Below are positions 50,997-60,769 of a DNA stretch of 64,000 nt, piece after piece (the first letter of the stretch is position 1; the number at the start of each line of letters is the position of its first letter). The translations under genes and the position numbers were made by a program. The notes beneath the pieces were generated by a model. That model saw nothing but the letters and a program-made list of their open reading frames with translations, did no database searches and was not told where the DNA came from. This stretch comes from Bordetella genomosp. 1. Its GTDB lineage: Bacteria; Pseudomonadota; Gammaproteobacteria; Burkholderiales; Burkholderiaceae_B. The DNA lies in NCBI RefSeq assembly GCF_002261335.1, contig NZ_NEVL01000004.1, positions 558,001 through 622,000 of the forward strand, written 5' to 3'.

Positions 50997-52262
50997 TCAG
51001 ACCATCGCCCGCTTGCCGATGTTGGCCGTGACCTGGCTCATGCTGTCGGCGGCGGCGGAGATCATCTTGCTGACCATCTGCATGCCCTCGTCCATGGCCT
51101 GCATCACTTCCTTCATCTTTTCGCGGTCCTCTTCCATCGAGGCCTGCAGCTTGACCATCATGGCCTCGAGCGCCTTCTTGTCGGCCAGCACCTTGTCGGC
51201 CGCCTCCTGCGCCTTGGCGCTCTGGATCGACTCGGCGCCGGTCGCGACCTGGCCCACGCCCTTGGCGATGGCGGCGGCGCCCTGCGCCACCTGGCCCGCC
51301 GTCTTGGCGGTGTCGGCCACCGTCTTGGCGGTCTGGGCGGTGACGTTGCCGGCGATGTTGGTGGCCGAGGACACCGCGCCCGCGCCGAACGAGGCCACCG
51401 CCATCACCACGCCCACCGTGATGGTGGCGGCCAGGCCGATCGCCATGGCGATGTAGCCCGCGGTCTCCGGATCCGCGCCGGCCACGGTGGCGATCGCGCC
51501 GGCCATCTTGCCCAGCGCGCCGGGCTCGACCAGGATCGCGCCGGTCAGCAGCATGGATGCGCCCGCAACGATGTTGCCGATCTTCTCGGCCAGCTCGGGC
51601 TCCACGCCGAAGGCCTGCAGCAGCTTGCTCACGGCCTGGGTCACGAGGTTGCTGATGCTGATCTCGGGACCGCCGCACTCGGTGGATATCTGGGTGGCGA
51701 GCAGCGACACCGCGCCGGTGACGGCGATCGCGGCCAGCGCGATCATGGCCGGTCCGGCCGCGCCCCCGGTCACCGCCGTGGCGGCCACCGCGGCCACCAC
51801 CATCAGCGCGGCCGCGATGGCGGCGACGATGGCGCCGATCCAGCCGAAGATCTTGCCCAGCAGGCCGCCCTTGTTGGCTTCCTTGCTCTTCTGGATCCAC
51901 TCGTCGATCTTGCGCGTCTGCTCTTCGTTGTTCTTGGCCTGCTCGATGCGGTTGTTCTCGATGTTTTCCTTGGCCGTGCGCAGCTGCGCCTCCTGCGTCT
52001 TGCCCTGCAGGTTGCGCAGCAGGTCGACCATGTCGGCCGGCGAGAACTGCTTGGTGGGCGCGGCCAGCGCCGGCTTGCCGTTGGCATTGATGACGCCGTC
52101 GCCCCCGGCCGCGCGGGTCTGGGCGATGTCGGCGGCCCATTGCGAGGCGAGCGCGGCCACGTCGATGTTGGCGCTGCGCACCACGTTGGCGGCCGCATCC
52201 AGGCCCGCGGTTTGCGGCGTCTGGCCGCCCGCCAGGGGCGAAGGCGTATTCCGGATGTCCAT
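50997..52262 (-). CDS. bopB: Translocator pore protein BopB (YopB/SctE type)
   Basis: 421 aa. A polar coiled N-terminus (TAKENIENNRIEQAKNNEEQ) is followed by two long hydrophobic regions (about 135-190 and 250-310) and a coiled C-terminal part (ADKVLADKKALEAMMVKLQA). This is the layout of the major pore-forming translocator YopB/SipB. A Cys in STECGGPEIS is present. It inserts in the host membrane with BopD. It is placed after bopD and before bcrH2. Confidence 0.88.
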   Translation of the reverse strand: MDIRNTPSPLAGGQTPQTAGLDAAANVVRSANIDVAALASQWAADIAQTRAAGGDGVINANGKPALAAPTKQFSPADMVDLLRNLQGKTQEAQLRTAKENIENNRIEQAKNNEEQTRKIDEWIQKSKEANKGGLLGKIFGWIGAIVAAIAAALMVVAAVAATAVTGGAAGPAMIALAAIAVTGAVSLLATQISTECGGPEISISNLVTQAVSKLLQAFGVEPELAEKIGNIVAGASMLLTGAILVEPGALGKMAGAIATVAGADPETAGYIAMAIGLAATITVGVVMAVASFGAGAVSSATNIAGNVTAQTAKTVADTAKTAGQVAQGAAAIAKGVGQVATGAESIQSAKAQEAADKVLADKKALEAMMVKLQASMEEDREKMKEVMQAMDEGMQMVSKMISAAADSMSQVTANIGKRAMV

Positions 52263-52278
52263 GAGAGGCCTCGCCAGG

Positions 52279-53100
52279 TCAGATGTTGCGGGCAATACCG
52301 CGGTTGGTCTCGACGCGGCTCTGCTCGATGGCGCCGAGCTTGTCGCGCACGTCGCGGATCACGTCCATCATCTGCTGCATCAGGTCGTTGGCGTGCTGCA
52401 CGCCGGTCTCCGCGACCTTGGCGTCCGCTTCCAGTCGCGCCCGGTCGGCATCGGCGCGGCCCGCCGCGCGGTCGAAGCCGGCCTGGATCATGCTGCCGAT
52501 GCCGCCGCTGATGCCGCTCAGGCCCTGGCCCATGCCGCTGCTGTTGTTGGCGATGCCGTCGTGCTTGCCCAGCGCGGTGCGCTGGGCCGCGGTCGGATCC
52601 TCGATGCCCTTCAGGCCGGCGGCCTTCATCGACGAGCCGATGCCGGCCATGCCGGCGCCGACCTGCGCCACGCCGCCGGCGATCTGCATGATGCCGGCCG
52701 CGAGCGCGCCCTTGAAGCGCTCCTCGGCGGCTTCCTGGATCTTGTCGGCGGCCGACTGCAGGGCCGAGACCTGGGCCGTCATGTCGGCGGCGCGCGTCTC
52801 GCGCGCCGCATTGCGCTGCTCCTGCGCCAGCTTCTGCATCAGGGCCATCACCGCATAGATGTCGGTGCCGACGCTGTCGTTCAGTCCGGCCAGCGCGGCG
52901 GCCACGTCGGCCGGACCGGCACGGCCCATGTTCGGTTCGGTCAGGCCGACCTTGCCCAGCACGTCGCCGGCGCCCTGCTTGGCGATCAGCAGCGTGGCGT
53001 CGAGCTGCCTGGCGCCGGCGGGCACGTTGGCGGCCACGCCCGGGTCGAGCGGATTGAGCAGCGCCGGATTCAGGCCGGCCGGGGAATTCACGTTGATCAT
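52279..53100 (-). CDS. bopD: Translocator pore protein BopD (YopD/SctB type)
   Basis: 273 aa. One hydrophobic region (ALAAGIMQIAGGVAQVGAGM, about 128-150) and a C-terminal amphipathic helix (HANDLMQQMMDVIRDVRDKL) match the minor translocator. It partners with BopB in the host-membrane pore. Start ATG 53100 overlaps the end of bcrH1 by 4 nt. Confidence 0.88.
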   Translation of the reverse strand: MINVNSPAGLNPALLNPLDPGVAANVPAGARQLDATLLIAKQGAGDVLGKVGLTEPNMGRAGPADVAAALAGLNDSVGTDIYAVMALMQKLAQEQRNAARETRAADMTAQVSALQSAADKIQEAAEERFKGALAAGIMQIAGGVAQVGAGMAGIGSSMKAAGLKGIEDPTAAQRTALGKHDGIANNSSGMGQGLSGISGGIGSMIQAGFDRAAGRADADRARLEADAKVAETGVQHANDLMQQMMDVIRDVRDKLGAIEQSRVETNRGIARNI

Positions 53101-53606
53101 GCTTGTTTCTCCTTGGCGCCGCGCGACACCAGCACGCTGCGCAGGGCCTGGGTGCGGTCGATGAGCACCGCGTGGACGTCGGGCCGGGCCATCGACAGCA
53201 CGAGGTCGCACGACTGCAGCGCCGTGTCGAACTGGCCCATCTCGGTCAGGCATTGGGCGGCGTAGAACGCCGGCGCCGGTTCGAGCGGATCGAGCAGCGT
53301 CGCCGCCATGTACTGTTGCAGCGCGTCGGCGTGCTTGCCCAGCGCCTGCGCCGCCGCGCCGAGTGCCACCAGGTAGCGATGCTCGGTATGGTTGAGCGCC
53401 ACCAGGTACGACAGCACCTTGAGCGCGTCGGGGTAGCGGCCCTTCTCGTACAGCCCGTAGCCCAGGCTGTAGAGCGCCTCGCACTCGTCGGCGGTCATGC
53501 CGTTGAGTTCACCCAGGGAGCCGCCACGCGCGAACTGCGCCACGATCTGGTCGTGCAGCGCGCCATATTCTTCGCTGGTCATCCCGGTCTGTTGGGCGGT
53601 GCTCAT
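53097..53606 (-). CDS. bcrH1: SycD-like translocator chaperone BcrH1
   Basis: 169 aa with TPRs: LYSLGYGLYEKGRYPDALKV, YLVALGAAAQALGKHADALQ and AFYAAQCLTEMGQFDTALQS. Class II chaperone of BopD/BopB, keeping them soluble before export. ATG 53606 has AGGAG about 9 nt upstream; an in-frame ATG 27 nt earlier is less well placed. Confidence 0.85.
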   Translation of the reverse strand: MSTAQQTGMTSEEYGALHDQIVAQFARGGSLGELNGMTADECEALYSLGYGLYEKGRYPDALKVLSYLVALNHTEHRYLVALGAAAQALGKHADALQQYMAATLLDPLEPAPAFYAAQCLTEMGQFDTALQSCDLVLSMARPDVHAVLIDRTQALRSVLVSRGAKEKQA

Positions 53607-53629
53607 GACGGTGTCTCCTGGCGTGAGGC

Positions 53630-53941
53630 TCAAACCATGGCGCGCGGGCGCTTCGCGCCGGTGCTGGCGCGCGGTTCGGTGCGATGACGGGCGTGGGCGG
53701 CTTCCTGCTCGACCTCGCGCTCGATGTCTTCCATGTCCTGGCGATACAGCTTCTCGGCGTCGGCGCGCACCTGTTCGGACACCGGCTGGGCCGCCAGCAC
53801 CTGACGCACCTTGGCCGGGTCGAGGCCGAGGCGGCGCAGGCGCTCGTCGGAGTCCTCGATGGCGCGCTGGGCATTGCGCACGACGGCGTCGGCGCGGTCG
53901 ATGAGCGCCTGGATGTTCTGGTCTTGCTGGGTTTCGGCCAT
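53630..53941 (-). CDS. Small helical T3SS protein of unknown role
   Basis: 103 aa, entirely helical and charged (MAETQQDQNIQALIDRADAV; RLRRLGLDPAKVRQVLAAQP; DMEDIEREVEQEAAHARHR). No signal peptide, no recognised domain. GGAG precedes the ATG by 8 nt. Between a filament gene and a translocator chaperone, it might be a chaperone or regulator of Bsp22-type proteins. Only place and coding quality support it as a T3SS gene. Confidence 0.6.
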   Translation of the reverse strand: MAETQQDQNIQALIDRADAVVRNAQRAIEDSDERLRRLGLDPAKVRQVLAAQPVSEQVRADAEKLYRQDMEDIEREVEQEAAHARHRTEPRASTGAKRPRAMV

Positions 53942-53994
53942 GGTCTTGCTCCGTGCTGGTCTATATGGGCGTGCGGGGTTGGGAGGGGCGCGGG

Positions 53995-54130
53995 TCAGCG
54001 CATGTTGCCGATGATGGAGGAGCGGCTGTCCTGCATCTTCTTGACGAAGTTCGTCATCACGTCGAAGGCCTCGTTGCGCTTGTTGCTCATGCTCTGCAGG
54101 CGCAGCATGTCCATCTGCTGGCTGTTGCTG
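53995..54130. repeat. Direct repeat: 3' end of Bsp22 copy 1
   Basis: About 130 bp are roughly nine-tenths identical to 55467-55602 (offset 1472). The repeat encodes the shared C-terminal helix and shows a recent duplication or gene conversion. Confidence 0.8.
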
Positions 54131-54582
54131 GCCGTGTCGAGCTGGGTCTTGACGCTGTTGATCATCTTTTCCAGGCCTTCGCGGGTCGGCATGCTGGAGA
54201 TCTGGCTGGCGGACACGCCCTTCTCGTTGTCCACCGTGCCGTTCACGCCGACCGGCGAGGTGCCCATGCCGAGCGCCGACGAGATGGTGGCGAAGTTGGC
54301 GGCGAGCTGGCGGTTGTCGGCGTTGTCCGGCACCTTGTCGCCCGGCGCGGCGTCCTTGCTCGGCAGGGTCGCCTTCATGCTGTTGAGCGCCGCCTGCATG
54401 TCGTTGAGCGAGGCCGTCAGCTTGTTGCGGTTCTGCACTTCCTGGATCTGCTGGTTCAGCTGGCTGTCGAGCAGCGAGACGCGCTGGCTCTGCACCATCA
54501 TCAGCGCGGTCTCGATATCCATGCTCGAGAGATCGAGGCTGCTGATGTTGCCCACACCCATATTGCCGATGTTCATGCTCAT
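53995..54582 (-). CDS. bsp22: Filament tip protein Bsp22, copy 1
   Basis: 195 aa, close to the roughly 205 aa of known Bsp22. Order: short Gly/Asn start, N-terminal helix (SSMDIETALMMVQSQRVSLL), middle part with few features (about 75-125), and C-terminal helix (SQQMDMLRLQSMSNKRNEAF) ending SSIIGNMR. Bsp22 polymerises on the needle tip in B. bronchiseptica and links to BopD. AGGAG sits 6-7 nt before ATG 54582. It is the best Bsp22 match of the three tandem copies. Confidence 0.82.
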   Translation of the reverse strand: MSMNIGNMGVGNISSLDLSSMDIETALMMVQSQRVSLLDSQLNQQIQEVQNRNKLTASLNDMQAALNSMKATLPSKDAAPGDKVPDNADNRQLAANFATISSALGMGTSPVGVNGTVDNEKGVSASQISSMPTREGLEKMINSVKTQLDTASNSQQMDMLRLQSMSNKRNEAFDVMTNFVKKMQDSRSSIIGNMR

Positions 54583-54649
54583 TTCTGGCTCCTGGCCGGC
54601 CACCCCGGCCGACGTATGAATTGCGAATCTGCTGTGTGAGTAACAACAA

Positions 54650-55462
54650 TCAGGCGTCGGTTCCGCCGATCTTGGAGGAAATCGCAGATCGGCTTTCCTG
54701 CATCTTCTTCACGTAATTGCTCATCATCTCCGCCGATTCGTTACGGCGGTTGACCAGCGCCTGCAGGCGCAGCATCTGGTCCTGTTGGCGGTTGGCGCAC
54801 TCGTCGATCACGCCCTGCACCCGCGACACCGCCTGGCGCAGCTCGCCGAACTCGCTGTCGTAGCGGATGCCGCCCGGGCAGCGGTTGAGCGTCTGGCCCG
54901 GATGGTCCGGCGTCAGGAAGCCGTCGCGCCCGCCCATCCGCCTGGCCAGGTCGGCCGCCACCAGATGCCCGCCGAGCTCGCCCTTGTCGCGCCACGCGGC
55001 CAGCGCACCGGCCTGCTCGGGCAGGTAGCGCTGGGCGAACTCCTTCATGTCGCCCATGTGGCCGAACAGACGCCAGGTGTTGCCGTCCGACGCGAAGCCG
55101 AGGTCGACGCCCGCCTCCATGGCGGCGCGATTGATCCGGTCGGCCATGGCGTAGCTCCAGCCACCGCCCGCGTCGTCCCATTCCTTGTCGAACTTGGCAT
55201 TGGCGGGAAACTGCGCCTGGACCGACTTCAGCCCCGCCTGCACCTGATTCAGCAGCTCGAGCCGGCGGTTGAGCTGGCGCAGCTCCTCGACCTGGACCTC
55301 GACCTGCTTGTCGATCAGGCGCACGCGCTCGGCCTGCACCGACATCAGGGCGGTTTCCTGGTCGGCACCCACCAGCGCGGCGCCGTCGACCGGGCCGCTG
55401 CCCTCCACGCCGACGCCGCCGAGCGTGGGACGGGGACCATTGGAAGGCGGGATCGCGGCCAT
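54650..55462 (-). CDS. Bsp22-like protein, copy 2 (divergent, long)
   Basis: 270 aa. N-terminal helix DQETALMSVQAERVRLIDKQ and C-terminal helix QDQMLRLQALVNRRNESAEM, then YVKKMQESRSAI, are clearly homologous to copies 1 and 3. The middle (about 95-215) is unrelated: WRLFGHMGDMKEFAQRYLPE, a Gly-rich loop, and two Cys (in NRCPGGIRYDSE and DECANRQQ) that could pair. The N-terminal 35 residues are Gly/Pro/Val-rich. It may be an alternative filament subunit or cap. Starts 4 bp after copy 3's stop. Confidence 0.72.
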   Translation of the reverse strand: MAAIPPSNGPRPTLGGVGVEGSGPVDGAALVGADQETALMSVQAERVRLIDKQVEVQVEELRQLNRRLELLNQVQAGLKSVQAQFPANAKFDKEWDDAGGGWSYAMADRINRAAMEAGVDLGFASDGNTWRLFGHMGDMKEFAQRYLPEQAGALAAWRDKGELGGHLVAADLARRMGGRDGFLTPDHPGQTLNRCPGGIRYDSEFGELRQAVSRVQGVIDECANRQQDQMLRLQALVNRRNESAEMMSNYVKKMQESRSAISSKIGGTDA

Positions 55463-55466
55463 GGCC

Positions 55467-55602
55467 TCAGCGCATGTTGCCGATGATGGACGAGCGGTTC
55501 TCCTGCATCTTCTTGACGAAGTTGGTCATCACGTCGAAGGCCTCGTTGCGTTTGTTGGTCAGGCCCTGCAGGCGCAGCATGTCCATCTGCTGCGAGTTGG
55601 AC
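55467..55602. repeat. Direct repeat: 3' end of Bsp22-like copy 3
   Basis: Partner of the repeat at 53995-54130; the two differ at about ten scattered positions. Confidence 0.8.
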
Positions 55603-56189
55603 AGCGTGTCGATGGCCGACTTGTTCTTGTCGATCTCCACCTTATTGGCGTCGATCTGCTTGTTATTGGCCGTCATCTGCGCCTCCATGCCGGCGATCTT
55701 CCCGGCCAGCTGGTCGACGAAGTTCTGCACCACCTTGCCCTTGGCGTCCATGGTGCCGTTGCCGTCCACGTCGCGCGGCTTGTCGTCGCCCGTCGGGATG
55801 ATCAGGCCGGCGTCCTCGATCTGCTTGAGCGTCTGGTGCGACAGCGCGGCATCGTCGCCCTGCCCCCACGACAGGCCGTACCAGCCGTTGTCGTCCGGGC
55901 ACTTGCTGGCGGCCAGGCGGCCCTGCAGGTCCTTGAGCTCGGCGATCTTGGTGCCCAGTTCCACGTTCGAGGTCTGGAGGTCGAGGTTGGCGCTGCTCAG
56001 GCCATTGGTCTGCTCGTTGAGCTTGGCGATGTCCTGGTTGCGCTGGTTCACCGCGGCCAGCTGCGTCTGCAGGCTGGCCTCGAGCAGCTGGCTGCGCTGG
56101 CTCTGCACCTGCATCAACGCCGTCTCCAGGTCCATCGAGCTCAGATCGATGTTCTGCACCCCGCCCATATTGATGCCGTTGACGCTCAT
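55467..56189 (-). CDS. Bsp22-like protein, copy 3 with a Ca-binding-like loop
   Basis: 240 aa, first gene of the big minus-strand operon. The ends match copy 1 (SSMDLETALMQVQSQRSQLL; SQQMDMLRLQGLTNKRNEAF; SSIIGNMR). The middle has KCPDDNGWYGLSWGQ and a DVDGNGTMD loop resembling a dockerin/EF-hand Ca site, followed by a coiled coil (ANNKQIDANKVEIDKNKSAI). GGGAG precedes ATG 56189 by 8 nt. It is likely exported with the same system, with a possible role in the filament. Confidence 0.75.
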   Translation of the reverse strand: MSVNGINMGGVQNIDLSSMDLETALMQVQSQRSQLLEASLQTQLAAVNQRNQDIAKLNEQTNGLSSANLDLQTSNVELGTKIAELKDLQGRLAASKCPDDNGWYGLSWGQGDDAALSHQTLKQIEDAGLIIPTGDDKPRDVDGNGTMDAKGKVVQNFVDQLAGKIAGMEAQMTANNKQIDANKVEIDKNKSAIDTLSNSQQMDMLRLQGLTNKRNEAFDVMTNFVKKMQENRSSIIGNMR

Positions 56190-56243
56190 GGTTCTCTCCC
56201 GTTTCGATCATGCCGGGGCCCCGCCCTGGCTCATGACCGGTTC

Positions 56244-56269
56244 GTAACGGCGCCGCGGGGTTTGGTTCC
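56244..56269 (-). promoter_or_regulatory. Putative BtrS-type promoter of the Bsp22/bopDB/bsc operon
   Basis: On the minus strand GGAACCAAA (56269-56261), 12 bp, GTTAC (56248-56244). It points towards copy 3 of the Bsp22-like genes, whose ATG is 55 nt on. It shares the motif of the bopN and btrA promoters with one extra spacer base. Confidence 0.6.
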
Positions 56270-56302
56270 GCCGCCGCCGCAAAAGAAATCGTGCCCGGGA
56301 TG

Positions 56303-56327
56303 GGAACCAAAGCCGGCCTGCCGTTAC
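56303..56327 (+). promoter_or_regulatory. Putative BtrS-type promoter of the bopN-bscF operon
   Basis: GGAACCAAA (56303-56311), 11 bp, GTTAC (56323-56327); bopN ATG 65 nt after. Match to 37182-37206 extends further (GTTACT and a nearby CAGGCAC). Confidence 0.65.
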
Positions 56328-56391
56328 TACCGTCAGGCACCCGTCGCCATCCCGCAACCGGAAATGGCGCGACGGCGGGTGCCCGGAGACC

Positions 56392-57492
56392 ATGAACCGT
56401 ATCGATTCCGGCCTGCCGACCCCCGGGTTCGGCGCCGCCACCGCCCACGCCGACGCCTCTGCCGCCCAGCAGCAGGCGGGCCTGATGCTGGGCGAGAAGA
56501 CCGTGACGCTGGCGGGCGAGGTCTCGCTCGCCGACGGCGCCGAGGAACTCAGCCTGCACATGGCCGAGAAGACTGAGGACAAGCACCACGCCGAACGCAA
56601 GGTCAAGGCGGACCGGCCGCCGCAGCTGCTGGACGCCCAGGAGATCGTCGAATTCCTGGACGACACGCACGATCCGGACGCCCAGGAAAAGCTGATCGAG
56701 CTGACCAAGAAGCTGCTGTCCGGCCAGGCCTCGCCGCGCCAGGGCGCGGCCCAGGCCTTCGGCGACGTGTCCCAGCAATACCTCGGCCTGCAATACGCGC
56801 TGCGCGAAGGCGAGCGCCAGGGCGCCGATCCGGCCGCGCTGGAAGCCATCCGCGACGCGCTGGCCGATCTCGAGATCGAGCGCGGCCCGGAGATCCGCGC
56901 CGGCCTGAACGCGCTGCGCAGCGCCGGCGAGTTCGCCGCCGATCCCGCCGGCGTGGCCCGCTTCCAGCAGACCTATCGCGACGTGGTGCTGGGCGAGACC
57001 TCGCTGGCCAAGACGCTCGGCCTGGCGCTCGAGCGCTTCGGCGAGGCCGACCTGAGCCGCGGCCTGAAGCAGCTGATCGCGGCGCTCGGCCACGATCTCG
57101 CCGCCGCCCGCCCCTCCACCGACACCGGCCGGCTGCAGGTGCTGGTCAGCGATCTCTATCACCTGGAAGTGGCCGTCACGGTGCTGGACGGCTGCGCCGA
57201 GCTGGGCGAGCGCCTGGCCGCGCGCCACGGCGCCGCGCTCGACAGCCCGCGGCTGATGCGCGACCTGATCGGCATCACCGGCGAACGCTGGGTCAGCGAG
57301 GCGCGCTTCACCGCCCTGGCGAACCAGCAGAACGTGACCGCCCCCGAGGCCCGCGTGACCTTCATGGCCGGCGTGCGCGCCATGCTCAAGGACCTGCCGG
57401 TGCAGATCTATCCCGACGCCGACGTGCGTCACAGCTTATTGAACGCGGCCCAGGAAGCCCTGGACGTGGCGATCGACGAGGAAGAGGCATGA
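56392..57492 (+). CDS. bopN: Gatekeeper BopN (YopN/SctW type)
   Basis: 366 aa. The N-terminal 60 residues are Ala/Gln/Ser-rich (secretion signal and chaperone-binding). The HrpJ/YopN domain follows (QAFGDVSQQYLGLQYALREG, FQQTYRDVVLGETSLAKTLG) with the TyeA-like C-terminal part included (SRLMRDLIGI-type segment, about 285-366). BopN regulates order of export and in B. bronchiseptica is itself translocated. First gene of the plus-strand operon; its stop overlaps the next start. Confidence 0.88.
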   Translation: MNRIDSGLPTPGFGAATAHADASAAQQQAGLMLGEKTVTLAGEVSLADGAEELSLHMAEKTEDKHHAERKVKADRPPQLLDAQEIVEFLDDTHDPDAQEKLIELTKKLLSGQASPRQGAAQAFGDVSQQYLGLQYALREGERQGADPAALEAIRDALADLEIERGPEIRAGLNALRSAGEFAADPAGVARFQQTYRDVVLGETSLAKTLGLALERFGEADLSRGLKQLIAALGHDLAAARPSTDTGRLQVLVSDLYHLEVAVTVLDGCAELGERLAARHGAALDSPRLMRDLIGITGERWVSEARFTALANQQNVTAPEARVTFMAGVRAMLKDLPVQIYPDADVRHSLLNAAQEALDVAIDEEEA

Positions 57493-57875
57493 ACGCCGCC
57501 GAACAGGCACTGGCCGCCCTGGGCCAGGAATGGGGCTTCGGTCCCCTCGCGCTCGACGAGCGCGGCACGCTGGCGCTGCAGGCCGAGTCCGGGCGCCGCG
57601 TCGGCATCGAACGCACCGGCACCGGGCTGGCGCTCTATGTCGCCGCGCCCGCCGAGTACGAGGCCGGCGCCTGGCTGCTGCGGGCGTTCAAGCGCGCCCA
57701 CCACAGCCGCCACGAGGGCTGGCCGGTACAGGTGGCGCTGCGCAACCGGGAACACCGGCACTGGCTGCTGGCCCTGGTCCGCATCGAGGAGGCCGGCATC
57801 GAGCCGGCCCAGCTGCGCGCCGCCGTCGATTATCTGAACCGCTGGCTCGACGCCGTGCGCGACGCCACCCGCTGA
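57489..57875 (+). CDS. Class I T3SS chaperone, SycN/YscB-like
   Basis: 128 aa of CesT type: ALDERGTLALQAESGRRVGI strand region, LALYVAAPAEYEAGAWLLRA, and a C-terminal helix (QLRAAVDYLNRWLDAVRDAT). The 4-nt overlap with bopN makes BopN the expected client, as SycN-YscB serves YopN in Yersinia. Confidence 0.72.
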   Translation: MNAAEQALAALGQEWGFGPLALDERGTLALQAESGRRVGIERTGTGLALYVAAPAEYEAGAWLLRAFKRAHHSRHEGWPVQVALRNREHRHWLLALVRIEEAGIEPAQLRAAVDYLNRWLDAVRDATR

Positions 57876-57897: not shown

Positions 57898-58305
57898 GTG
57901 ACCGACCTCAGAATCAGCGGACTGGCGCTCGACCGCGGCATCGAGAGCATCAGCTACGCGCGCCGCGACGACACCGGCGCGCACCTGCCCGACCGGCAGA
58001 ATCTCGCGCCTTCCGACGACGGCATGCGGCCGCAGCTGGAATCGCTGCTCGACAAGCCCGGCATCGACCGCACGCTCGACCAGGCGCTGCGCCCGGCGCT
58101 GAGCAACCGCGACCTGCTGATGCCGGCGCGCTTCGGCCAGGCGCTCAACGACGCCCTGGCCTCGCTCTCGGAGGCGGCCGACCAGGCCGCGGCCCAGGGC
58201 GACGAGACGGCCCGCACGCTCAACCGCGCGGTCCGGCTGCTGCGCGAGGAAACCGGCCTGCGCGACCTGGTCGCCATGTACCGCAACGCGCTGCACCAAG
58301 GATGA
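57898..58305 (+). CDS. YscX-like T3SS protein
   Basis: 135 aa, GTG start at 57898 with AGGAG 6 nt upstream. The hydrophilic start (LALDRGIESISYARRDDTGA) and the helical C-terminus (LNRAVRLLREETGLRDLVAM) match YscX, an early secreted factor that binds SctV with YscY. Placed before the YscY-like gene as in Yersinia. Overlaps it by 4 nt. Confidence 0.75.
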   Translation: MTDLRISGLALDRGIESISYARRDDTGAHLPDRQNLAPSDDGMRPQLESLLDKPGIDRTLDQALRPALSNRDLLMPARFGQALNDALASLSEAADQAAAQGDETARTLNRAVRLLREETGLRDLVAMYRNALHQG

Positions 58306-58672: not shown

Positions 58673-60769
58673 ATGCAAGCCCTCAATCGCGCCGTCGCCC
58701 TCGCCACCAGCCGCAATGACGTCGTGCTGGCGATCCTGATCGTCTCGATCATCTTCATGATGATCCTGCCGCTGCCCACGACCCTGGTGGACGTGCTGAT
58801 CGGCGCCAACATGACGATCTCGGCCGTGCTGCTGATGGTGGCCCTGTACCTGCCCTCGCCGCTGGCCTTCTCGTCGTTTCCCTCGGTGCTGCTGGTCACC
58901 ACGCTGTTCCGCCTCGGCATCTCGATCGCCACCACGCGCCTGATCCTGCTGCAGGGCGACGCCGGCCACATCATCGAGACCTTCGGCAACTTCGTGGTGG
59001 GCGGCAACCTGGTGGTCGGCCTGGTGGTGTTCCTGATCCTGACCATCGTGCAGTTCGTGGTGATCACCAAGGGCGCGGAACGGGTGGCCGAGGTGGCCGC
59101 GCGCTTCTCGCTCGACGCCATGCCGGGCAAGCAGATGTCGATCGACGCCGACCTGCGCGCCGGCACCATCGACATGGACGAGGCGCGCCGCCGCCGCACC
59201 ATCGTCGAGAAGGAAAGCCAGCTGTACGGCGCGATGGACGGCGCGATGAAGTTCGTCAAGGGCGACGCCATCGCCGGCCTCATCATCGTCGCGGTCAACC
59301 TGCTGGGCGGCATGCTGATCGGCACCATGCAGCGCGGCCTGACCGCGGGCGAGGCCGTCCAGGTCTATTCCATCCTGTCGATCGGCGACGGCCTGATCTC
59401 GCAGATCCCGGCGCTGTTCATCGCGATCTGCGCCGGCATCATCGTGACCCGGGTGCAGACCGGCGAGGGCGGCCCGTCGAACGTGGGCAAGGACATCGGC
59501 GCCCAGGTGCTGGCGCAGCCGCGCGCGCTGCTGATCGCGGCCGCCATCGCGGTCGGCATGGGCCTGATCCCGGGTATGCCGACCTTCACCTTCCTGGCGC
59601 TCGGCGCCATCGTCGGCACGGTGGGCTTCGTGCTGCTGCGCGGCACCCGCAAGGTGGTCGACGAGAAGACCGGCGAGATCACCGAGATCCCGGCCCTGGC
59701 GGCCGACGGCCAGCCCGCGCCGGCCAAGCCCAAGACCGACGGCAGCGCCGAGTTCGCGCCGACCCTGCCGCTCATGATCGACGTGGCGGCCGGGCTGCAG
59801 AAGCACTTCAACCCCGACGAGCTCAACGAAGAGCTGCTGAAGATCCGGCGTGCGCTGTACTTCGACCTCGGCGTGCCCTTCCCCGGCATCCAGCTGCGCT
59901 TCAACGAGGCGCTCACCGAGCAGACCTACAACATCCTGCTCTCGGAGGTGCCCGTGTCGCAGGGGCGCCTGCGCCCCGGCCACGTGCTGGCGCGCGACAG
60001 CGAACAGAACCTGCAGGCGCTGCAGGTGCCGTACGAGGCCGACAAGCGCTTCCTGCCCGACGTGCCCACGCTGTGGGTGGCGGACGCGCAGCTGCCCACG
60101 CTGAGCGCCGCCGGCATTCCCTATCTCGACGCGCACCAGGTGCTGACCTGGCACCTGGCCTTCGTGCTGAAGAAGTACTCCTCCGACTTCATCGGCATCC
60201 AGGAGACACGCTTCCTGCTCTCGGCCATGGAGGACCGCTATCCGGACCTCGTGAAGGAGGCGCTGCGCGTCATGCCGGTGCAGAAGGTGGCGGAGATCAT
60301 GCAGCGGCTGGTGTCCGAGGACATCTCGGTGCGCAACCTGCGCACCGTGCTGGAAGCGCTGATCGAGTGGGGCCAGAAGGAAAAGGATTCGGTGCTGCTG
60401 ACCGAGTACGTGCGGGTCTCGCTCAAGCGCCACATCAGCTACAAGTATTCGAGCGGCCAGAACATCCTGCCCGCCTATCTGCTCGCGCCCAATGTGGAAG
60501 AAACCGTGCGCGGCGCGGTGCGCCAGACCTCGGCGGGCAGCTACCTGGCGCTGGACCCGAACGTGTCCAAGCGCCTGCTGGAGAACATCAAGCGCACCGT
60601 CGGCGACCTGAGCGCGGCGGCACGCAAGCCGGTGCTGCTGACCTCGATGGACATCCGGCGCTATCTGCGCAAGATGATCGAACAGGACCTCTACGACCTG
60701 CCGGTGCTCTCCTACCAGGAGCTGACGCAGGAAATCAACGTGCAGCCGCTGGCGCGCGTGGATCTGTGA
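58673..60769 (+). CDS. bcrD: T3SS export gate ring BcrD (LcrD/SctV)
   Basis: 698 aa. Seven to eight membrane helices lie in the first 330 residues, with the FHIPEP-family signature region (KQMSIDADLRAGTIDMDEAR, about 155-174). The cytoplasmic ring-forming domain follows (about 360-698: LRFNEALTEQTYNILLSEVP, VPTLWVADAQLP-type segment, VSVRNLRTVLEALIEW). It forms the nonameric export gate below the membrane. Confidence 0.95.
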   Translation: MQALNRAVALATSRNDVVLAILIVSIIFMMILPLPTTLVDVLIGANMTISAVLLMVALYLPSPLAFSSFPSVLLVTTLFRLGISIATTRLILLQGDAGHIIETFGNFVVGGNLVVGLVVFLILTIVQFVVITKGAERVAEVAARFSLDAMPGKQMSIDADLRAGTIDMDEARRRRTIVEKESQLYGAMDGAMKFVKGDAIAGLIIVAVNLLGGMLIGTMQRGLTAGEAVQVYSILSIGDGLISQIPALFIAICAGIIVTRVQTGEGGPSNVGKDIGAQVLAQPRALLIAAAIAVGMGLIPGMPTFTFLALGAIVGTVGFVLLRGTRKVVDEKTGEITEIPALAADGQPAPAKPKTDGSAEFAPTLPLMIDVAAGLQKHFNPDELNEELLKIRRALYFDLGVPFPGIQLRFNEALTEQTYNILLSEVPVSQGRLRPGHVLARDSEQNLQALQVPYEADKRFLPDVPTLWVADAQLPTLSAAGIPYLDAHQVLTWHLAFVLKKYSSDFIGIQETRFLLSAMEDRYPDLVKEALRVMPVQKVAEIMQRLVSEDISVRNLRTVLEALIEWGQKEKDSVLLTEYVRVSLKRHISYKYSSGQNILPAYLLAPNVEETVRGAVRQTSAGSYLALDPNVSKRLLENIKRTVGDLSAAARKPVLLTSMDIRRYLRKMIEQDLYDLPVLSYQELTQEINVQPLARVDL

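Follow-up and report, generated by a model that had tools for sequence, protein, structure and literature searches.

Three tandem Bsp22-type genes with different heads in a Bordetella type III secretion locus, and their shared module outside type III secretion

Bsp22 (SctA) of Bordetella bronchiseptica is reported to be secreted by the injectisome and to polymerise into filaments (PMC7498569), and it has been described as the founding member of a tip family of its own (PMC12607632). In B. bronchiseptica and B. pertussis its gene is located between sctW (bopN) and btc22-bcrH1-bopD-bopB (PMC7498569). We analysed a stretch of 64,000 nucleotides from Bordetella genomosp. 1 (contig NZ_NEVL01000004.1, positions 558,001 to 622,000; referred to as the window), in which the corresponding place in a type III secretion locus, with sctW on one side and btc22-sycD-sctB-sctE on the other, is taken by three intact genes on the minus strand, here named A (55467..56189, 240 amino acids), B (54650..55462, 270 amino acids) and C (53995..54582, 195 amino acids). 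An earlier note had described them from the sequence alone as tandem genes with common ends and unrelated middles. Sizes and positions were as noted there, and the description was confirmed: in each of the three pairs homology is found in the N and in the C segment (none of 500 shuffles reached any of the six scores), while the middles resemble each other no more than shuffled sequences do. The shuffles also reject chance or composition as the source of the shared ends. We lean towards the view that A, B and C encode distinct subunits that build a single, composite tip filament of the injectisome.

Assignment of the three proteins to the Bsp22 family, likewise proposed in the earlier note, is supported by the location between gatekeeper and translocator genes and by the single copy in a genome of the same genus (G084), which we take to represent classical Bordetella. 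In a comparison of three sequences this copy matched C with 41% identity (E 1e-38), A with 34% (E 1e-29) and B with 27% (E 3e-21), C being nearest to it. A profile built from the C-terminal core of 44 residues (alignment A1) detected C of the window, whose core was part of the profile, with E 3.5e-30 and the G084 copy with E 1.8e-16. The similarity to classical Bsp22 covers both ends, which are conserved. In contrast to the three types of the window there is only one type in the classical system, and the heads of A and B are larger. That classical Bordetella species carry one bsp22 agrees with the one match in G084 and with a table in PMC7498569. A search of the source genome with C returned only A, B and C (five stretches), and pseudogene status of the three was rejected, as their reading frames are open and their orthologues are under constraint.

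The shared module consists of an N-terminal helix and the C-terminal core, which is 89% identical between A and C and 52% identical between B and C; the core of B does not have the usual ...IIGNMR ending. Pfam and NCBIfam scans of A, B and C gave no model over the shared module, and no solved structure was related to them by sequence at a meaningful E-value. The C-terminal helix of C weakly matches the needle protein family PF09392 (E 0.0065, under the cut-off). The predicted model of A, with a mean pLDDT (predicted local distance difference test score) of 83.5, places a small head between two helices (21-94 and 151-239), the arrangement of conserved ends with an intervening head that had been expected. 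Further support for this hairpin comes from the A proteins of B. ansorpii (L020 and L021, alignment A2). Compared with A of the window, their N arm is lengthened by 21 residues behind position 75, and their C arm likewise gains 21 (14+7), the first of these blocks following position 171. When the helices are paired in antiparallel fashion from the model ends (94 with 151), residue 75 comes to lie opposite 170; both rows were in the input alignment of the predictor, and this support is thus not wholly independent of the model. The head of A contains an EF-hand-like loop (residues 140-148, DVDGNGTMD), in which D142, N144 and D148 are invariant and D140 is present in 16 of 18 rows. Position 12 of an EF-hand loop is usually acidic; here it is glycine, and Pfam gave no EF-hand match. 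Judged from this loop, the head is possibly ion-binding.

EspA of enteropathogenic E. coli forms a two-helix coiled coil with an outer loop, comparable to the hairpin predicted for A, and its filament grows distally (PMC12607632). No EspA model was among the Pfam and NCBIfam matches of A, B and C up to E 1, although this filtered search leaves distant kinship possible. A structural search with the model of A gave generic long-helix matches only, and the lack of EspA among the 50 rows listed excludes nothing. Flagellin and other axial proteins (hook-filament junction, cap) showed no sequence-family match, and their structural Z scores were within the long-helix background.

Mean identities and ratios of nonsynonymous to synonymous differences (pN/pS) were obtained by simple counting on diverged sequences from 153 (A), 21 (B) and 45 (C) pairs, one genome per species; the A comparison used 18 of 19 A proteins, including that of the window. 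Identity within A is 63% in the N arm, 81% in the head, 47% in the C arm and 87% in the core. For B the values are 84% (N arm), 72% (head) and 80% (core), for C 75% (N arm), 50% (middle) and 93% (core). The pN/pS ratio is 0.29 for the A head, 0.39 for the B head, 0.77 for the C middle and 0.15 to 0.32 for the cores. Because of this conservation and the low pN/pS the heads of A and B look like working domains, and at the level of sequence A and B look like stable subunit types. The middle of C is the one fast-evolving middle and looks free or under diversifying pressure. In the window genome the cores of A and C (55470-55601 and 53998-54129) show a pS of 0.14, compared to 0.35 to 0.56 in seven other genomes, and gene conversion between them is possible in this genome. 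As a general process, concerted evolution of A and C cores was dismissed, being hinted at in the window genome only.

In the composite filament that we favour, each protein would form a two-helix hairpin, in which the N-terminal helix and the highly conserved C-terminal helix pair into the polymer core and the middle is exposed at the far end, on the outside of the filament. C would be the main Bsp22-type subunit. Since the cores of A and C are nearly alike, A should fit the same lattice, to which it would add a conserved head that possibly binds ions. The core of B is divergent and lacks the ...IIGNMR ending; B would therefore more likely be a minor component located at an end of the filament, as junction or cap. 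A single Btc22 chaperone would serve all three proteins via their common ends. The proposal draws directly on homology, gene order, orthology, the conservation pattern and the predicted hairpin of A, and purifying selection on the A head, the B head and the cores was counted in its favour. From these we infer the hairpins of B and C, polymerisation, co-assembly, the placement of A and B, the common chaperone and ion binding.

To see how widespread such arrays are, the core profile was searched in 268 genomes of the window's family. The module is present in 33 of them, nine with one match, eleven with two, twelve with three and one with four. As 24 of these 33 genomes carry two to four copies, several copies per locus are the usual state in the family and the single bsp22 of classical Bordetella is less usual. 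SctX was also found in 33 of the 268 genomes, and 31 have both SctX and the module; G193 and G235 have the module without SctX, G091 and G104 SctX without the module. G235 has a type III SctJ above the cut-off, G193 does not. The module is rare across the order, where 7 of 399 sampled genomes carry it, four of these belonging to the window's family. The earlier note had named a common and already described arrangement as evidence against its proposal. The arrangement is indeed common, and part of it is in print: three open reading frames (ORFs) drawn at the bsp22 position of B. ansorpii were termed different genes replacing bsp22, and in the accessible text they are not called relatives of Bsp22 (Kamanova 2020, PMC7498569). 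On the very contig drawn there, FKBS01000014.1 (L021), all three ORFs encode module proteins, one A-type and two C-like. This trio is like that of the window in position and number and unlike it in having two C-like copies and no B-type gene.

A tree of the module (114 rows, 94 columns) was poorly resolved, with 7 of 111 inner branches starred; 21 module ORFs without recognised N motif, 12 near-identical rows and all identical rows had been dropped. It unites 18 A-type rows as one set (SH-aLRT, a Shimodaira-Hasegawa-like likelihood ratio test, 97) and seven B proteins as a clade on a long stem (SH-aLRT 100), and leaves the C-like copies unresolved. It supports the A and B groups, but does not show whether the module passed from type III carriers to the others or the other way. 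Besides the genes of the window there are 18 A and 6 B orthologues. B occurs in seven genomes, each with A and C genes, A being split in one such record. The Alcaligenaceae loci looked at that carry an A-type gene have the order A, (B), C-like, btc22, with A first and a C-like copy adjoining btc22, and wherever any btc22 match was found there was one per locus, beside two to four subunit genes. A-type heads, though weaker ones, also occur in one Acidovorax copy (L040, E 2e-7, the last of three there) and one Propionivibrio copy (E 3e-5). Three loci (L130, L126, L127) have three or four copies, none of them A- or B-type, and the module was therefore probably multiplied more than once. Of the Achromobacter records L008/L114 and L012/L118, both with an intact C, one has a split A-type gene and the other an A-type gene that lacks its head and has a decayed core. 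A remote relative (24-25% identity) is found on rhizobial plasmids, in NZ_CP120375.1 (L148:8983-9522) and three Mesorhizobium records; in the single record looked at it lies inside a type III locus near sctE. Phage records gave no match for C, for which reason a phage carrier was rejected.

Outside this family the sequence comparisons argue, on balance, that Bsp22 is one user of a transferable exported module and not a private invention of type III secretion. Such a module would span at least three phyla, would use several unrelated export routes and would probably form surface polymers wherever found, its heads being swapped freely; the trio of the window would be such swapping within one operon, and two bacilli join the module to a BopD-like segment. 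Contigs were scanned for the best 80 of 87 relatives and sorted by hand, and 25 of the 80 loci are type III loci of Betaproteobacteria, 55 are not. The latter belong mostly to Paenibacillus, Cohnella, Brevibacillus and Bacillus-type organisms, further to Microbacterium, Patulibacter, Acinetobacter, Devosia, Pseudoroseomonas and two Rhodocyclaceae bins. Neither SctX nor SctJ above the cut-off was detected in any of 20 such carrier genomes (16 with FliF-level matches in the SctJ search, four without), and SseC was detected in none of 23, the type III controls being positive in each search; hidden injectisomes were rejected on these results. Sampling by taxon revealed the module in 48 of 197 genomes of the family of Paenibacillus G268, 3 of 99 genomes of the genus Acinetobacter (one new), 1 of 296 of the phylum of Microbacterium G281 (G281 itself) and 2 of 299 of the phylum of Bacillus G274 (G274 and one other). 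The module is thus common in one Gram-positive family, with scattered occurrences elsewhere.

The core of C is identical in 44 of 44 residues to that of Paenibacillus xylanexedens (L066), whereas 21 of 38 comparable codons differ, which indicates strong constraint and not recent copying. Contamination of the Gram-positive and other assemblies is unlikely on account of these codon differences and because the G+C content of the gene was within 0.05 of that of the locus in 12 of 13 genes checked (e.g. 43% vs. 48% in L066, 72% vs. 71% in L053). The exception, L059 (gene 58%, locus 69%), and the core of L019 (57% in a 75% locus) look like recent arrivals. Within the Rhodocyclaceae, L028 combines a type III locus with the absence of a signal peptide, whereas the proteins of L048 and L064 start with what resembles a signal peptide and the stretches fetched around them gave no type III match. 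A literature search that covered few subscription papers found none that mentions Bsp22 together with Paenibacillus or uses the terms Bsp22-like or Bsp22 homolog, paralog, family or domain.

Export signals were surveyed in 58 module ORFs without type III genes (one protein, L031 = L139, being counted twice). In 54 of them a hydrophobic stretch of 16 residues (mean 1.34 or more) precedes the module; by eye these stretches look like Sec signal peptides or anchors. As a control, none of 47 type III module proteins reached 1.3, the highest value being 1.19. Three proteins (L043, L059, L131) carry a short leader with a terminal GG motif and a weak, sub-threshold match to bacteriocin or lantibiotic leaders, which suggests export by a peptidase ABC (ATP-binding cassette) transporter. 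The remaining ORF, L136, is a fragment. The Acinetobacter protein L056 is a two-partner-secretion exoprotein (FHA-like, with the module at the C-terminal end) followed by a gene for an FhaC-type partner, and Microbacterium L044 has by eye a wall-sorting-like tail. A periplasmic-binding-protein (ANF receptor) domain is a recurrent partner of the module, encoded downstream in four Bacillota loci (L039, L055, L060, L085) and fused to it in Patulibacter L049; L019 is similar by eye. The gene that follows is of one and the same cluster in 18 of 38 loci compared, all 18 of them from Paenibacillaceae; the member scanned (L017:6523-8415) has cNMP (cyclic nucleotide)-binding domains and a PrsW-type membrane protease.

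Two chimeras from Bacillus-type organisms (L060:8526-9260 and L055:7899-8594) combine a signal-peptide-like start and a Bsp22-type N arm with a BopD/SctB-like segment, and the L060 chimera also retains much of the C core. Over 68 residues this segment is 43% (L060, E 8e-13) and 41% (L055, E 1e-11) identical to SctB of the window in a set of ten sequences. A type III SctB profile run against all ORFs of the loci gave for these two E 7e-16 and E 2e-18, respectively; the NCBIfam SctB matches were weak and below the cut-off. Neither genome showed SctX, SctJ above the cut-off or SseC. As Bsp22 is reported to bind BopD directly (PMC7498569), such a chimera would fit a real contact.

These fusions bear on a less probable reading of the window, to which we give roughly a one-in-five standing: A and B could be secreted partners (adhesins, sensors or translocator helpers) that use the module for chaperone binding, export or docking. 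Heads conserved like functional domains would be expected then, and elsewhere the module is indeed joined to a two-partner exoprotein, a periplasmic binding protein and a BopD-like segment. Nevertheless, the core of A is almost that of C, which fits incorporation into a lattice better than mere docking. Antigenic variation, i.e. interchangeable subunits with outer domains differing for escape from host immunity, had been offered in the earlier note beside several subunit types, which fit best. It appears unlikely. The C middle would suit it with its 50% identity and high pN/pS, and hypervariability has been described for the corresponding loop of EspA and tolerance of inserts for that of Bsp22 (PMC12607632), but among the species compared the heads of A and B are kept, that of A more than its arms. 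Moreover, A, B and C look like one operon, and a repeat search of 52800-57600 revealed the homologous 3′ ends of the genes as direct repeats and no clear invertible switch; there are only weak long-distance inverted arms (32 nucleotides, 72%; 23 nucleotides, 87%), neither neatly flanking one gene. Slightly more doubtful still are alternative filaments, each subunit forming its own polymer under different conditions: each protein has both ends needed for self-polymerisation and the B core differs, but the genes lie side by side on one strand, with 4 bases between A and B, and there is one chaperone gene. That the copies are redundant duplicates heading for loss is very improbable despite the decayed or split A in two Achromobacter records, as the A and B orthologues are under purifying selection.

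The surroundings of the trio are those of a type III locus. On the minus strand A, B and C are followed by a btc22-like chaperone gene (53630..53941, 103 amino acids), the sole Btc22 match at the locus (NF051897, E 1.3e-20; 73.6 bits, below the curated cut-off of 100, for a scanned stretch starting 10 codons upstream). Next in reading order come the genes of a SycD/LcrH-type translocator chaperone (53097..53633; TIGR02552, E 3.6e-31, above cut-off), the BopD-like translocator SctB (52279..53142; NF038055, E 5.6e-21, above cut-off) and the BopB-like translocator SctE (50997..52295; PF04888 SseC, E 1.4e-42). Ahead of A and divergent from it, on the plus strand, lies the gatekeeper gene sctW (56392..57492; TIGR02568, E 1.8e-47, and TIGR02511, E 2.6e-19). 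Farther out are sctX (57898..58305, plus; TIGR02502, E 5.4e-36), the export apparatus gene sctV (58673..60769, plus; TIGR01399, E 2e-284) and sctD.

The occurrence of the module beyond type III secretion, which the earlier note had missed, is the finding most likely to surprise specialists. With tandem copies as stable subunit types a composite injectisome filament becomes testable, and Gram-positive bacteria without a detected injectisome offer small model proteins (about 150 to 175 amino acids, almost pure module) for filament assembly. The distribution also prompts one to ask which came first, a general surface polymer from which the tip filament was recruited, or the tip filament.
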